DNA from: Chaetoceros tenuissimus
Lineage: Eukaryota; Bacillariophyta; Thalassiosirophyceae; Chaetocerotales; Chaetocerotaceae
Reading direction: 5' to 3'
DNA: 64,000 bases
NCBI GenBank assembly: GCA_021927905.1
Contig: BLLK01000047.1
Coordinates: 3,286,001 to 3,350,000, forward strand
Below the pieces are notes generated by a model. It saw nothing but the letters and a program-made list of their open reading frames with translations, had not been told where the DNA came from and searched no databases. The first letter of the stretch is position 1. Each line of letters begins with the position of its first letter. The position numbers and the translations under genes were made by a program. Positions 24,648 through 62,494 of this stretch are shown piece after piece.

Positions 24648-25174
24648 TGAATAATCGAATAATCGTTATCATTTTTCTATTTTTGTAGAAAAAGGAAACT
24701 CACACTTTCTTATTTTGTATCAAATTAGCCTCATGACTCGATATCGACAAAGAAAATAGAATTTATTTTCTAATTTCGATGTTTCACAGACGACGTACAC
24801 CACGTACGTGTTCTCCTTCACTTATTTTGTTTGCACACATGCATAATCATGAAATTTTTTTTATAAAACTCTTGCTATTCTATCCATACTACACATAAAT
24901 TCATTCTCAAGCCTGCATTCTCCATCTTCCCATTTCCCATCTTCCCTTCTGCCACCACTCACTCCACGTACGTCGATAATGACGTAGACGACGAGAACTT
25001 GTTCAAGATTTAGATTGCTTCAGCAAAGCAGGAAACAGCATAACGCTTACTCATAAGTTCTATCGGTATTTCTCACAATCTTCGTTCGTTCCGTCTAACT
25101 CCAGTCTTCTTAAAATCCATTCATATATATTTGTCATATAGTTCATCTGGATTTGATTCCAAAACAAATGGCCA
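24648..25174. promoter_or_regulatory. upstream region of the IDO-like fusion gene
   Basis: AT-rich. It contains repeated ACGTAC motifs (near 24794-24808 and 24966), reminiscent of cAMP/CO2-type or bZIP sites but unproven. An overlapping upstream frame of seven codons (ATG 25168, stop 25189-25191) straddles the main start and could lower translation. Confidence 0.35.
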
Positions 25175-28100
25175 ATGAACACTTCAACTAGTAACGCGAA
25201 TGCCTATGTAAATGTTCCTCGTCACAAACAAACAGATGACGATGATAACAGTGTGAAGACTATTGGTTCTTCTATGAGCAGCAAGTCAAGCATTCATACT
25301 TTAAAGAATGAAAAGAAGAGACAAGAGGAAAAGATTTCCAAATTGCGTAGTAAAGTTGCGAGTACTCGCAGTCTCGTGAAAAGTAAGCTACTGCCAGAAG
25401 ATTTGTTGAAAGTAGAGAAAGAACCGATTAAGCTACACAATCTTGATACAACTCTGTCCACATTTGTTTCAGATTCATCGTCTACAGACAGCTCTTTGAA
25501 ACGTACATTGCATCTGTATGAAAGTGTTCATGATGAAAATGTGAGATGTTTGGACGTTCCTTTAGCTCGTTACATTCGAGAAGTAGAAGAGGAAACAATT
25601 CAGAAGGGTAATGAAAATAGAGGATTTCTCTCTTTTCGGAATGGATTTTTACCAATGCTCTACCCCGAACATTCACTTCCTGATACTCATATTTTATGGG
25701 ATGAACTTGGAGCCAATTTGAATACCATGGTATCTGATTTAACTCTCAGACCATATATTGAGAATGAGTTGCCTTTACTTTCGGCCAAACAAGAGGATCT
25801 TGAAGACAGGTTTCTGTTTAGGGCTGCTCTTATCCTTGGACTCGCATCTCATGCGTATTGGTACTGCGGCCCAAATGAACCAACAGAATTGCCTTCATCT
25901 TTGAAGGAGCCATGGGATATAGTGAACTCCCGCCTAGGAAGAAAGGGGTCATACTTGTCTGGTGAAGACGTGCAACTTTACAATTTCTCATACAAAGACA
26001 ATGTCAGTGTAATTAGCGGGGAGACATTTGATGCACAAGAAGGACAATTTCAAATTGCAAATTTGAACATGTTGCAATCAATGTGGGGAAATAAGGCGGA
26101 GATTGTATTTCATCTTGCTTTCTGTGAGATGGCGAGAGCTGCTGCCCCATTACTATCACTTATGTGTCTTGCTCAAGATGCAGTGCAGCGTAGTGACGAT
26201 GAAGCAATGTTTCATGTTCTACATGACATTGGAGAGTGTATCCAAAATATTCAAGTGGCATTTATGAAAATCATTCCTGATCCAAATGCTGACACAGGAA
26301 TTGAACCTCTTGTTTGGGCAAAGACTGTCGCTCCAGTAGGTGTGAGTTTCAACAAAGGAATGCCAAGTCCATCGGGGTTGGGCACTCCATTTTTCCACTG
26401 TCTTGATGTATTCTTCTCGAGAGGTCTTTACGCGTCTACCCTTGGAAAAGATGCTGTAGGAGCTCGTTCTTTTTTCCCTGAGACGTGGATTGGGGCTCTG
26501 AATAGTATTGCCTCAACTTCGATTCATGTTTATGTTGCCAGTAGTGACAATGAGGAGCTCCATACTGCATGGAGCCATGCTATAGATACATATGCATCAT
26601 GGAACGGACTCTTAGGAAAACATCTTCAAAAGACCTACAACTTTCTTGAGCTTGCGTTTAAAACTGGAAGAGAGAAAACATTGGGTGGATTCAAAGGCGG
26701 ATTCGCTGACCGTATGTGGGACAAAATTATGGATATGCTAGATAGATCTCGCGAGGAGAGACTTGCTGCAAAGAATTCCACACTCAAGTTGCCATTGGCT
26801 AGTCTACAGAAAGCTCAAGGTGAAGGGAATATGAAATCTCTAGTGTATGAACTTCCACATGACGCCTTTGACTGGAAACCAGGTGATACTGTTTCAGTAT
26901 GGCCCTCAAACTCGGATGAGATAGTGTCAAATACACTCGAATGTTTTAATGCATCAGGAGATGAAATGATTCCGTTATCAGAAGAATGGCGTAAGCATCT
27001 GAAAAAGTTCCTTCAACTAGGAATGAAAAGAGGCAAGAAACCAATGCAAGCAAAGTTGAGAGACATCCTTCGCTTTGCATCTTTATCACCTCTACCTAAG
27101 GAAACGTTCATGCAATTCACCAGATACTGCCCTGATGTTGCTTATCATATTAATCCTGATTCATTCTTTGACGTGCCTGAGTTACTTGGTTATATTAGAT
27201 TTATTCGAGGTCAAGACGCTCTAGGATTAGATAGAGATGGAGATATCCCTGATCTGCTTCTGAAAGATGATCCTATCATGTATTACAACTTCTTGAAATC
27301 AGATAATGAAGATCCCCCTTTGGCACATGCAGTTGCTAGAATGCTTATGGTAATGGGAGTCAAAGATATTCCTATCTTTAACAATCCAGTGGTTTCTCTG
27401 GAAATTTTCGAAGAAAAGGTATATCCAATCCTAACAAGCTTGGCAGCAAAAAGGTGTAATGTGCTGGATATGTTGAGACCAATCAAGCAAAGGCAATATT
27501 CCATCGCAAATGCTAAAGATGAAAAGAAAATGGTACTGAAGCTTGTAGTTGCAAATCTGACCTATGAAAGGTATGCAGTACAGAAGTACTTCAAATCAAT
27601 CAAAACTACGATGGACTCGGAAAGAGCTATAGCTCTTGCTTCAAAATATTTCAATAAATGGAAATCCAAGGCCTTAAATAAGAGAACTATGATTAGGAGT
27701 AATTCTGTTGTTCGTTACTTTGCGAATGATCTCATGGGTAAACGAGAGAAGAAAACTATGAAGGGAGTCACTTCAAACTATTTGACAGACATGACAAATT
27801 CTGATCTCATGTTCTCTATAGAAACCAATGTTTCATTCCATGCCCCTTCTTCATCACAGCCAATCATCATGATTGCTGCAGGTAAGTATGGTAATGACAC
27901 TATTAAAAGGCAAGCGTAAACTATGCATCTCATATTTCTCTCTTAGGGTCGGGTATCTCTCCATTCCTTGGTTACTTGGAACAACGCATTGCTGATCATT
28001 CATCGGCTCCAATATTGCTTATTTGGTCTATTCCATATATGAAGGAAGGAAAGTATATTTTGAAGGAAATTGAGGAAAAATTGAGAAGTAGCTCGTTAGA

Positions 28101-29649
28101 CATTGAGGTAATTGTAGCTGTCACTCGCGAGAATGTTTGGCCCGTCTTTAGTGATGGTCAATTCGAAATGAAGAGTCATCCTAAAGAAAGAATTACGGAT
28201 CTGATTGTGCGTAAGATTCAGCTACGGAAGAAAATTCATAGGATGCTTCATCCTGAGAAATTTGGTGGTAGCAATGGATATTGTTATCTATGTGGATCTG
28301 CTAGCTTCATTCACTCTACTCTAGATGTTATCGATGATATACTCATGGACTTCTCTCTTTTCGATGACGGTGATAATCTGGAAGCGTTCATGAACGAAAA
28401 GATGCAGCAGACATCTAAAAAATGGCTTACGAAATATCTCCAGTCAGACCAGAGGATTGTCTATGAAGCATTTAATGATAAGCCGCCGAAGACCCTTCCT
28501 CTTATCACTATCTCAGAGCTGACAACCAAGAATGTCATCGAGACGGTGGAATCAGAGGGCCTTTACATGGCAATATATGACAAAGTGTATGATGTAGCTT
28601 CGTTTGTTCATCCAGGAGGAACACGCATTCTTCAGTCGTATTATGGGATGGATGCAACGACAGCTTGGGAGGCAGTGCGTCATCATCGGTCACAAGGATT
28701 GAATGCAAAATTAGCAACTCTTTTGGTAGGAAAGTTGAAGATGCCTTCATTTTCTCCAATACCACTTTTGATTTTGGATGGGGAAAAAACTACGAACATG
28801 GATGGCGTTTTCAAATCATGGTGCAGCCTCTTGTTCTCCGTTGTTGAAGTTGAAAATACAATGGCAATGGAGTATAGCTTGGACGTCTTACATGTTGCTG
28901 GGAAAATTCATAATGAGGTTATCTCTCCTATGAAGTTGCAGATGATGTTTCAGGCGCATAGAAGAATGGTGTTTTCTCATTTAAATAGCGTATGGACATC
29001 AGCTGTAAGCAAGGCAATGGCATACACAAAAGCTGTTATCAATATCCAAAAGTCAACAGGAGGCGAATCACCTGATAAGTATGAGGCGAAAGTATCAAGT
29101 ATTGATTCTATTGGGAGTAATTACAGTATCTGCCATTACCTACCAGTGCCATTTGAAAAGAACAAAGATGACATCAACTGCTTTCATGAGGATTTTGAGA
29201 AAGTGCTTGCTTCTCCTAAAGTTGCAAAAATGCTCTCATCTTGTGATGCATTAGTTTCTGCATGTCATGACATTAAAGATAATAATGGAAACGAAGACAC
29301 GGAGTTGGTCGGGTATCTCACAACTTGCATTAGAATAATGACAAGTAACGATTTGAAACTACTTCGCGAATGGAAAAACATTTTGAGGAGAGTAATGATA
29401 TTCTTCGAGGAAAATGACGGTGCAGCAATTTCTCTGTATAATTGTTTCCATGAATTGTTGACTGCGCTTCGATCTATGCTTTCAAGCCTCGAAAAGTATA
29501 TTGATTTGAATTCTTCCCAGCAATTTCTGGACCAGCTCAATAGTTTGGGAAGAGGAGTAGAATCTTACAAAGATAACGATTGGCTGAGGGTCAAAGAGCA
29601 GAGGGCCCCCGCTACTCATTCATGGCAAAATACCCACAAGAGGTCCTAG
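25175..29649 (+). CDS. IDO-like dioxygenase / FAD-NADPH reductase / cytochrome b5 fusion
   Basis: Two exons with a 65-bp intron (27882..27946) give 1469 residues. Residues ~130-525 resemble indoleamine 2,3-dioxygenase: RAALILGLASHAYWY, then SGLGTPFFHCLDVFF, FFPETW and a candidate heme-ligand histidine in GKHLQKTY (H483). Residues ~555-800 are an FAD-binding domain of the cytochrome P450 reductase type (RQYSIANA at 773-780). Residues 897-1070 bind NADPH (AAGSGISPF, YLCGSASF). No FMN domain is present. Residues ~1090-1165 are cytochrome b5, with heme ligands in HPGG (H1124) and the HH pair at 1148/1149. A helical tail follows. The IDO arginine that holds the tryptophan carboxylate seems to be Ala (TVAP, ~386), so the substrate may differ. 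Known IDO1 is reduced by b5 and P450 reductase, so this reads as a self-supplied enzyme. Confidence 0.82.
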
Positions 29650-29679: not shown

Positions 29680-30043
29680 AGGATTTACTCTCTTGTTCAA
29701 AGCACAAATGTAATGCAATAAATACGGATATTAGGAATTTTTTTAAAATAAACTTTATAAATGCAGATATTATTTAAACAAAATTGAAGATGCTAGTTTG
29801 GTACCATATTGGAAACCGAAATACGATTAGACTTTAACATAGCTCCAGGCCTACGGGGTGGTAGATACGAAAAAGTTGTCACTTGACAAATGTATCTTCT
29901 GTATATTTTCTAAAGTATTTTCAACTATCTCTTCTGGATTCAATTTTTTCCACGACCAACGACTTTCTTTTGAAATACGAGTATACAAATCACTGTACAC
30001 TGCAGAATAGATAATATTCAAAGGATTCATGTTTTTTTCAAAT
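29680..30043. repeat. right copy of the duplicated segment
   Basis: Direct repeat of 24163..24464, about 5.2 kb apart. It covers the spacer after the IDO-like gene and the 3' part of the SLATT-like gene. The copies are clearly diverged (substitutions and several gaps), so the duplication is not recent. Confidence 0.75.
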
Positions 30044-30846
30044 TCATCATTAATACGTCTACGAACGGCATTCTTATTCAAAAGCATCTTCAGTCTTGAA
30101 TCAGCTAATGCAAATGCTTCAAAGATAGGGTCAGGAATTACAGAATCACAAGAAGATATGATCTGTTTGAAAACTGCATTGTATCGTTCTGGATTTAAAT
30201 CATATTTCCTTTGATGACTTTCTTTGTCAGCTTCTTCAAATACTAAATCGTCATACAATCTCTTCATTTCCAGAGCTGCAGTACGATGCATATCACTTCG
30301 AGCAGAATAATTTAGTCGCTTACCACAAGTATTTTCATTTAAAGTCATGGCTAAAAGAGAAATAATCCCAACCAAAACTTCAATCAAAGTGTCAGCAAAC
30401 ATCTGTTTTTCCTGTAATACCACAGACGAAAGTGATAGGACACCACCTATAAACGTGAGAGTAGTCAAGGGTATGAAATTCAACCAGTAATCTCTTTTGT
30501 CAAAATAATGATGTGATAAACGATTCATTTGGCGGTGCTTTTCACATAGGATTGGCAAATCTATGGAAATTTCATTTCCATTACCCGATCGTCTGAGTTT
30601 GCCACCTTGGAGTAATGGGTACTGGATACTTTTTCCATCCTCCAAGTACTGGTCAATATTGCTATTAGTGTTGGGGGAAGAAGTAGTGGATGACAAATCC
30701 CTTGTTTTTGATTCTTCACTACTAGTGACAGTACCCTGCTTGTTTACTTCTTCAGTTGTTTCATAAAAATGAAGCGCTTCCTCTGCGACAAGGGTATAAT
30801 CATTTGCAGTAGCTACCATGTGATTCTTTACTGTCGGAGTTTCCAT
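29851..30846 (-). CDS. two-transmembrane protein with SLATT-like domain
   Basis: 331 residues, single exon, from ATG 30846. The N-terminal ~95 residues are polar and Ser/Thr-rich. H-R-Q-M-N-R-L (~104-110) precedes two membrane helices (~121-142 and ~151-170), followed by a long cytosolic helical part (RSDMHRTAALEMKRLYDDL). This layout matches the SLATT domain, a two-helix membrane module found with nucleotide-sensing systems in bacteria, where it is thought to form pores, and also in some fungi and algae. I recognise the layout rather than a diagnostic motif. It converges on the IDO-like gene and its end was copied to 24163..24464. Confidence 0.5.
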   Translation of the reverse strand: METPTVKNHMVATANDYTLVAEEALHFYETTEEVNKQGTVTSSEESKTRDLSSTTSSPNTNSNIDQYLEDGKSIQYPLLQGGKLRRSGNGNEISIDLPILCEKHRQMNRLSHHYFDKRDYWLNFIPLTTLTFIGGVLSLSSVVLQEKQMFADTLIEVLVGIISLLAMTLNENTCGKRLNYSARSDMHRTAALEMKRLYDDLVFEEADKESHQRKYDLNPERYNAVFKQIISSCDSVIPDPIFEAFALADSRLKMLLNKNAVRRRINDEFEKNMNPLNIIYSAVYSDLYTRISKESRWSWKKLNPEEIVENTLENIQKIHLSSDNFFVSTTP

Positions 30847-60545: not shown

Positions 60546-60933
60546 ATTCACTGAAAATTGAGGACAGATTCAAATTGTTCTATGATAGCTGAATGGTAAT
60601 GTTGGAGGATTTGTTATCCTAGGAGCGTTTCATTCCACTGCAAAATTGGGCGTTGCTATCCACAATGCTCAAGCTATGTATTGTACATAGACCTACGCAT
60701 AATTGTTTCTTCGTGTACTCGTTACGTCAGTTAATTTCAGTTAATCTACTACTGAAATTGATTTGACATTTTAGGAAGGTTCAGGTCTTGACGAGTCACG
60801 GATTGGTCATTCGCTTACAATGACCCGTGAATTTGCACAAGACATTGTACAATCTGACGTCGAGAGGGTGGTGGTTGGTTGTTACTTTTACTATCTATTT
60901 TACTATTTATCCATAATCTTTCTACAAGAAAAA
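60546..60933. other. upstream region of the peroxidase gene
   Basis: A frame from ~60775 through ATG 60820 is open into the peroxidase frame (GSGLDESRIGHSLTMTREF) and follows a possible acceptor (TTTTAG, ~60774). It could be an exon of another gene or leader sequence. I start the peroxidase at its signal peptide instead. Confidence 0.35.
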
Positions 60934-62494
60934 ATGAATTGCATAAGAGCATTACACACGCTACTCTTTTTTATTCTCTCACACCTTTGTTGTGGAGTGA
61001 AGATCAAAGGGCTGAGGCCTGATTCGACTACCATCTGTAACCCAGGAGATCAAAAGTTCTCGGCAAAGATTGTACTAAAGGCCGATGACATCAGTCAGGG
61101 GTTGGATGTAACAGATGTCCAGTTTCAGTTCAACCTCGATACGCCCTGGGAAAGTATTGAAAACCTCGTTTTTGAGCCTTCAACCAAAAATGCTGGTGAT
61201 CTTATTGCCAAAGCTACCATTACCAAATCTGTATCCGAGAACCTTGAATGGAGAGTCAGAGCAATTTTGAGTAATGGCTTTGAAGAAATAACTGGGTGGC
61301 AATCCTTGAATGTGAAAAATACAGGCCCTATTGCACCAACAACATCCGCACCTGTACCAGCTCCTGTTCCTACCACAAATGCACCTGTACCAGCTCCTAC
61401 TACAAGTGCTCCTGTTCTGGCTCCTACTACAAGCGCTCCTGTAGTAGCTCCGACTCTAGACGGTCCTCCTATTGATGCATTGATTGCAGACATTAGAGCT
61501 ATCATCTCTAGCTTTGGAATCCCTCTCCGGGCAAAATTTGTGCGTCTCGGATTTCATGATTGCGTTGGGGGATGCGATGGATGTGTTGATCTTTCTAATC
61601 CTGATAATAATGGATTGGAACTCCCTATCGATCAACTTGCTCCCATTGTTGAAAAGTATACCGGAACTGGTATCACCCGAGCAGATGTTTGGGCCATAGC
61701 TGCTATGGTAGGTGCCAATGATTCTCAAGCTCAAAACAATGCTGCACAGGACTATGAGGTTGCTTGGTATGGTCGTCCTACTTGCAATGATATCACCGGG
61801 AAGGGAGGACCAGAAATAGAACTACCCTCAGCTGATCTAGATTCGCGAGGTCTAGGCTTGTTCTTTTTGAATGAGTTTCAATTTACTCCAAGAGACACTG
61901 CAGCAATTTTGGGCGCACATTCTCTAGGAGAACTATCTCCAGCAAATTCTGGATTTAGTGGACAGTGGGTAAGAAGAAATGAAATCTTAGACAATGTTTA
62001 CTATGCAGAAATAGTTGGAGCTGGCGATACTCTCGACGACCAACTAGCTGCTCCAAATTGGACAGTAGAACAAGTTTTAAACAACGCTCCTATTCCAGAC
62101 AGATTTCAATGGAGAAGAGGTGGTGCTGGGAGTACCGACGAAAGAGTATTTCTAAATGTTGATATTGTAAGTATTTACTTTGGAAAAACTATTTGAACAT
62201 TTTCTTTCATATTTATTGATACCCTTTATTTCCATAACACGACAGGCACTTGTCCGCGACTTTGAAAATCATATTGATACTACAACTGGAGAAGTAAGCT
62301 GTACATTCCGAGCAAATCGCAATAATAGTTGCCCCCATGCAACTCAATTTTTCGAACACTCGGTTGAGTTCCGCAACGACAACGCTGCATTTCTTCTTGC
62401 CTTTCACGACACTTTTATGAGAGTTTTACATCAAAATACAGATCGTCAGGATGCTAGAACAACATGCTCGTCTCCTCCTTGTCAGTTAGTTTAA
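60934..62494 (+). CDS. secreted heme peroxidase with N-terminal beta domain and Thr/Pro linker
   Basis: Two exons with a 79-bp intron (62167..62245), 493 residues from ATG 60934. A signal peptide (LHTLLFFILSHLCCG) is followed by a ~100-residue beta-rich domain (~25-125) that I do not recognise. A linker of repeated T-S-A-P-V/P-A-P units comes next (~130-172). The peroxidase domain (~175-490) has the distal site RLGFHDC with Arg and His, calcium-type D after GGCDGCVDL, and proximal His in ILGAHSLGEL. It belongs to the plant/fungal/bacterial heme peroxidase superfamily and uses H2O2 to oxidise small substrates, probably outside the cell. ATG 60820 would precede the signal peptide and is less likely. 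Confidence 0.87.

Follow-up and report, generated by a model that had tools for sequence, protein, structure and literature searches.

Introduction

The cellular electron source of the indoleamine dioxygenase (IDO) family is still debated. Cytochrome P450 reductase, with or without cytochrome b5 (b5), is reported to support IDO1 in vitro, with an unclear role in vivo (PMC13142367). Human IDO is described as needing a reducing agent, ascorbate or NADH, for the insertion of one oxygen (PMC12921851), and MarE is described as needing an outside donor for monooxygenation, its natural reductant being unsettled (PMC12312684). Bacterial relatives of IDO have been reported in ocean data, in a source whose accessible text mentions no domain layouts (PMC1821046). 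Here we describe a gene of the diatom Chaetoceros tenuissimus that encodes an IDO-fold heme domain, a reductase with modules for flavin adenine dinucleotide (FAD) and NADPH, and a b5 domain on one chain. It lies in a 64,000-nt stretch (the window; GCA_021927905.1, contig BLLK01000047.1, positions 3,286,001 to 3,350,000 of the forward strand), to which coordinates below refer unless another locus is named. A sequence-only reading of the window had claimed that one continuous frame over one clean intron joins IDO-like, FAD, NADPH and b5 domains, and that the flavin mononucleotide (FMN) domain of P450 reductase is missing. All of these claims held in our analysis, and the fused gene was confirmed as real.

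Gene structure and domain layout

The features of the gene, all on the plus strand, were as follows.

25175..29649, +, whole gene from start to stop codon; two exons, 1469 aa, one open spliced frame
25175..27881, +, exon 1; aa 1-902 plus the first base of codon 903
25532..26809, +, IDO-fold heme domain; aa 120-545
26315..26332, +, W381-A386 (WAKTVA), at the place of the canonical substrate segment; A386 opposite the canonical Arg
26621..26623, +, H483, predicted proximal heme ligand; His in 190/190 family domains and 12/12 canonical IDOs
26810..27871, +, FAD module of CysJ/P450-reductase type with connecting part; aa 546-899
27491..27502, +, FAD motif RQYS, R773-S776; R, Y and S in 62/62 homologues
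27875..27966, +, nucleotide-binding motif AAGSGISPF, aa 901-909, split by the intron; G903, G905 and P908 in 62/62
27882..27946, +, intron; 65 nt, GT...AG, site shared with the paralogue L004
27947..29649, +, exon 2; stop codon 29647-29649
28291..28296, +, C1018-G1019 of the NADPH module; 62/62 homologues; PF00175 2.7e-5
28492..28749, +, cytochrome b5 domain; aa 1085-1170; PF00173 1.5e-11
28609..28620, +, HPGG with axial ligand H1124, His in 62/62 homologues; partner H1148 at 28681-28683, His in 61/62
28777..29646, +, C-terminal all-helical domain; aa 1180-1469, 290 aa, kept in the family

Joining 25175-27881 to 27947-29649 gave 4410 nt with a single terminal stop, which translated to 1469 aa. 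An in-frame TGA at 25154 lies 21 nt ahead of the ATG. The exon junction of the translation reads ...MIAAG/SGISPF, and the homologues P0002 (AAGSGVSPF), P0003 (ASGSGLAPF) and P0004 (GAGSGISPF) are contiguous across the diatom intron point. No strongly hydrophobic stretch was found in the window protein by hydropathy (best 19-residue mean 1.54, none near the N terminus), and we therefore take it to be soluble.

The whole-chain Pfam scan showed matches above the cut-offs for IDO (PF01231, aa 153-366, E 4.4e-20, curated cut-off), Cyt-b5 (PF00173, aa 1098-1167, E 1.5e-11, 44.6 bits against a cut-off of 23.7) and NAD_binding_1 (PF00175, aa 899-1025, E 2.7e-5). FAD_binding_1 (PF00667) reached E 8.8e-7, below its cut-off (29.2 vs 32.3 bits); this cut-off was passed by four of five scanned bacterial-type members, with P0018 below it (19.9 bits). 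The middle part of a family profile built from 61 sequences matched CysJ (1ddg, E 3.3e-58) and also P450 reductases, and its first part matched IDO2/IDO1 at about 1e-33. A profile of the IDO domain only gave 4e-33 for IDO2 and 1e-32 for IDO1.

Structure models covered the homologue P0007 and the C-terminal tail of the window protein. The homologue model showed the IDO fold throughout, and Foldseek matched it to 1ddg (E 8.9e-20), with the FAD module also related to the P450 BM3 structure 4dqk. The flavodoxin (FMN) family showed no match in the window protein (Pfam, E up to 10) or in seven relatives (E up to 1), and no clear solved-structure relative was found for the C-terminal helical domain. 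H483, R773/Y775/S776, G903/G905/P908, C1018/G1019 and H1124/G1126/G1127 were kept in all 62 aligned homologues, which excludes chance.

Heme ligand and substrate pocket

We aligned 190 family domains (126 proteins, 63 locus frames and the window protein, near-copies included) with 12 stand-alone IDOs. Position 386 was Ala in 132 and Gly in 58 of the family domains, and Arg in 10 of the 12 canonical IDOs, the other two being gapped. A second alignment, made profile to profile (40 vs 9 sequences, E 6.4e-47), put A386 in the identical register. The two independently made alignments thus upheld the earlier claim that Ala replaces the substrate-binding Arg, which we take to be R231 of human IDO1; the motifs it had named, RQYSIAN at aa 773, AAGSGISPF at 901, HPGG at 1124 and TVAP at 384, and the His at 483 all stand where that reading had placed them. 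An earlier hidden Markov model (HMM) alignment to IDO2 had another register over the substrate segment, and we trusted the two alignments that keep the shared Asp-Pro anchor. W381 was kept in 189/190 and K383 in 187/190 family domains, and the GTGGT loop of canonical IDO was not kept in the family in either of the two alignments.

Judged from sequence, the distal pocket of the diatom proteins differs further from the canonical one, with Gly, His and Phe at three positions (G263, H313 and F316, in 6/6 diatom-type sequences). By the HMM alignment to IDO2, these correspond to Y126, F164 and S167 of human IDO1.

Protein family and bacterial distribution

A first search scored 7999 candidates and found 11 proteins: four diatom-type proteins with 42-96% identity to the window protein, one distant member, and six bacterial-looking proteins with IDO, NAD and b5 domains, five of which also had the FAD domain. 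The diatom-type P0002 carries an additional NmrA-like N-terminal part. A second search with an alignment of nine sequences found 436 proteins at E<=1e-3 among 8000 scored candidates. Builds and names were read from 120 of the 436 matches, and three main builds appeared among the matches listed: a plain form of ~1160 aa, a form with an N-terminal FHA domain of ~1295 aa, and a form with an N-terminal GGACT/AIG2 domain of ~1570 aa. The last has a gamma-glutamylcyclotransferase-like domain ahead of the IDO part, as in P0008, P0075 and others. Database names were generic ('cytochrome b5 domain-containing', 'FHA domain-containing', 'sulfite reductase ... flavoprotein').

The GTDB species-genome scan gave 61 loci from 101 pattern matches. 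Their taxa include Herbidospora, Microtetraspora, Catellatospora, Dactylosporangium, Ktedonospora, Anaerolineae, cyanobacteria, Myxococcota, Oligoflexus, Aquimarina, Poribacteria and more. By open reading frame content 51/61 loci were full-length, counting 48 from the motif script and three (L035, L046, L053) that have no exact RxYS motif, 1136-1157 aa and a near whole-length match. The reductase was absent, with IDO, b5 and tail kept, in nine loci (L055, L056, L059-L063, L065, L066). The remaining locus, from Saprospiraceae (L057), is split in two: a 419-aa IDO gene overlaps a gene of 277 aa for b5 and tail. The b5 domain and tail travel with the IDO part even where the reductase is missing.

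The layout is not unique to the diatom and belongs to a mainly bacterial family. Its presence in many bacterial phyla strengthens the idea of the sequence-only reading that the debated reductants of IDO are fused to the enzyme. The fusion was rare in phylum samples: a PF01231 match in a frame >1100 aa, by which length alone fusion was judged, occurred in 4/1281 genomes after four seed genomes had been left out (two Actinomycetota, one Chloroflexota, one from the cyanobacterial sample, and zero Bacteroidota). A stand-alone canonical IDO occurred in 14/1281 of the same non-seed genomes overall and in 2/4 of those with the fusion (hypergeometric 7e-4, from a small and not phylogenetically independent set); this association was set aside.

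Gene neighbourhoods

In 34/61 loci, covering 20 of 34 genus labels, the fusion has a CBS-domain gene upstream of it on its own strand (BLAST clustering; Pfam check on L023 only). No such gene was found in the other 27/61, some of which end near the fusion gene. An example of the CBS-domain gene is L023:6730-7251.

The neighbours of the reductase-less locus of Streptomyces coelicoflavus (L059) were ketosynthase-like (by eye), NmrA, HpaB, FAD monooxygenase, AraC regulator and arylamine N-acetyltransferase genes; upstream of the reductase-less gene of S. harbinensis (L066) the genes resembled this set by eye, but the acetyltransferase was missing. In Limnofasciculus a canonical IDO (PF01231 3e-102) directly follows the fusion. 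In Chrysosporum a single contig holds both the fusion and a canonical IDO, accompanied by amidohydrolase and PhyH genes; genes resembling sulfotransferases and ABC transporters were also recognised there by eye. A DsbA-like gene was found near the fusion in 3/5 Aquimarina loci (L043, L045, L054) and near the split genes of L057 (Pfam check: L045), and was not seen among the gene calls of L050. HxlR genes lie near some Bacteroidota members. No single pathway unites these neighbourhoods. A link to low-molecular-weight thiols was rejected: PIG-L and glycosyltransferase genes were found near L021, L023 and L029 only, and one expected partner had no Pfam hit.

Copies in the diatom genome and origin

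PF01231 was found at three places in the diatom's own genome (41.03 Mb, 68 contigs): the window gene and two further copies, L004 and L005. L004 lies on the same contig (C34), ~190 kb away in opposite orientation. Spliced at the matching site (70-nt intron), it encodes 1472 aa with 90.7% identity to the window gene over 1467 aligned codons. The ratio of non-synonymous to synonymous substitution rates (dN/dS) between the two was 0.24 overall, 0.11 in the IDO part, 0.08 in b5 and 0.39 in the tail. Given the low dN/dS and the intact frame of L004, both genes look functional. L005 (2030-6292, minus strand, contig C33) is a distant copy with a single 1420-aa frame, about 24-26% identity to the window protein over matched stretches, and IDO and b5 matches above the cut-offs; its tail is EF-hand-like, with EF-hand matches below the cut-offs. 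The sequence-only reading had mentioned neither these copies nor the 290-aa C-terminal helical domain nor the bacterial family.

The careful tree comprised 49 rows after removal of five long ones (L005, P0011 and three stand-alone IDOs). It separated the family from the canonical IDOs at 100/100 and grouped the five diatom-type rows in one clade (100/100) on the family side, without a settled place there. Both trees carry the warning that long branches meet where the family and the canonical IDOs join. The diatom gene probably came from bacteria by transfer, because every named member from the GTDB scan is bacterial, in a collection that holds no eukaryotes. A specifically cyanobacterial origin was not retained: the quick tree set the diatom clade beside Chrysosporum and P0107 (96), and the careful tree did not fix its place.

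A kynurenine/NAD role in the diatom was also rejected, its own genome having NadA and no TDO match (control positive in 2 genomes). The 3-HAO search of the same genome gave no match and its control was silent too, so that it carries no information either way. Diatoms appear to use the aspartate route (PMC4217691).

Two other genes of the window were recorded. The gene just downstream (29851-30846, minus strand) has weak similarity to SLATT_5 (2e-6, below cut-off; PADLOC RTasSLATT 2e-4), a two-transmembrane (2TM) domain named after bacterial conflict systems. At 60820-62196 (plus strand), a heme peroxidase-like gene (PF00141, 5.5e-11) follows a Pro/Ala/Thr-rich repeat.

Discussion

We read the window protein and its family as self-sufficient, NADPH-driven oxygenases of the histidine-ligated IDO/TDO (HDAO) superfamily, which likely monooxygenate an indole or other aromatic held in a non-canonical way (probability roughly 0.6). 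Compared with canonical IDOs, the family has the PF01231 fold and the proximal His and lacks the substrate Arg. For membership of the HDAO superfamily, the fold was seen in the homologue model and the His is conserved by sequence, heme ligation being predicted. An oxygenase and an NADPH electron chain lie on one polypeptide, as judged from its sequence. NADPH would give hydride to FAD, which would pass single electrons directly to the b5 heme without an FMN step. The b5 domain would then hand electrons on to the IDO-domain heme in its ferric or oxy state, where one oxygen could be inserted on an indole or other aromatic metabolite held unlike tryptophan in canonical IDO. Monooxygenation is likely because electrons are supplied on the protein's own chain, and an own NADPH supply would fit this chemistry best. 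As a whole, the earlier interpretation is supported, and the matching layout in many bacteria suggests that an IDO-family enzyme able to power itself has arisen in nature. We see about even odds for a broader proposal, an undescribed class of His-ligated heme monooxygenases that are self-sufficient and occur across kingdoms. This class would be the IDO-fold counterpart of P450 BM3, with CysJ-type FAD feeding a tethered b5 directly and without FMN, with substrates other than free tryptophan, and with many bacterial members wired to FHA (phosphothreonine) and CBS (nucleotide) signals.

Several points weigh against monooxygenation by a self-sufficient enzyme. In vitro, neither P450 reductase nor b5 is reported to have enabled the relative PrnB to form product, and the authors of that study consider an exclusive redox pair improbable in the case of PrnB (PMC11791213). 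A reductase is no proof of monooxygenation, since dioxygenation also needs ferrous heme. The FHA domains and CBS genes could be signs of regulation or sensing.

The protein could instead be a true dioxygenase that cleaves the indole ring, its fused reductase and b5 only reactivating autoxidised ferric heme and NADPH being rarely used. IDO1 appears to rest in the ferric state and to need one-electron reduction (PMC13142367), which speaks for such an enzyme, as do the IDO fold seen throughout the homologue model and the two cyanobacteria with a canonical IDO and the fusion on one contig. However, the stand-alone IDOs of the sampled genomes manage without a fused reductase, and neither the substrate Arg nor the GTGGT loop is kept; we consider a dioxygenase unlikely, if the most serious of the alternatives.

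More doubtful still is a heme protein for redox, O2 or NO handling or sensing, either a flavohaemoglobin-like detoxifier or a regulated sensor, rather than a biosynthetic oxygenase. The N-terminal FHA domains of many members, the upstream CBS-domain genes and, in some Bacteroidota, nearby DsbA-like and HxlR genes would suit such a role. Many members are without FHA, however, the CBS gene is not a constant neighbour, the Streptomyces and cyanobacterial contexts look metabolic, and the homologue model keeps the whole IDO fold. That two or more neighbouring genes were read as one is scarcely credible in view of the one open spliced frame, the intact paralogue with matching layout and intron site, and the uninterrupted bacterial homologues.

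Exactly the partners discussed as electron sources for IDO are tied to the IDO fold across phyla, which makes the electron-source question testable in one purified chain. The self-sufficient oxygenase proposed here would give chemistry a one-component, NADPH-driven His-heme oxygenase, and it may be an instance in which a P450-reductase-type module passes electrons from FAD straight to b5. The layout of IDO, reductase and b5 was not described in titles or abstract openings among the matches listed in a search of full-text literature, outside which most subscription journals lie.

Comparison with known systems

In contrast to IDO1/IDO2 (PF01231; PDB 6pu7, 9uz0), the family has Ala or Gly for the tryptophan-binding Arg and does not keep the GTGGT loop; W381 and K383 are nearly invariant instead, and the reductase, b5 and helical tail are fused. 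MarE and PrnB, as HDAO monooxygenases, have in common with the family the IDO/TDO-type fold; their His-ligated heme is predicted for the family, and their one-oxygen chemistry is that proposed here. No fused donor is described for them in the accessible parts of the sources, PrnB activity was not reconstituted, and the comparison is by description only. The FAD/NADPH module with its connecting part is like that of CysJ and NADPH-cytochrome P450 reductase (PDB 1ddg, 3qe2), whereas no flavodoxin (FMN) domain was found and the b5 of the window protein follows where the CysJ chain ends. P450 BM3 (CYP102A1) likewise places a heme oxygenase and an NADPH reductase on one chain, with a related FAD module (4dqk), but the family has an IDO fold with a predicted His ligand where BM3 has a P450 with Cys, and a b5 in place of the FMN domain.
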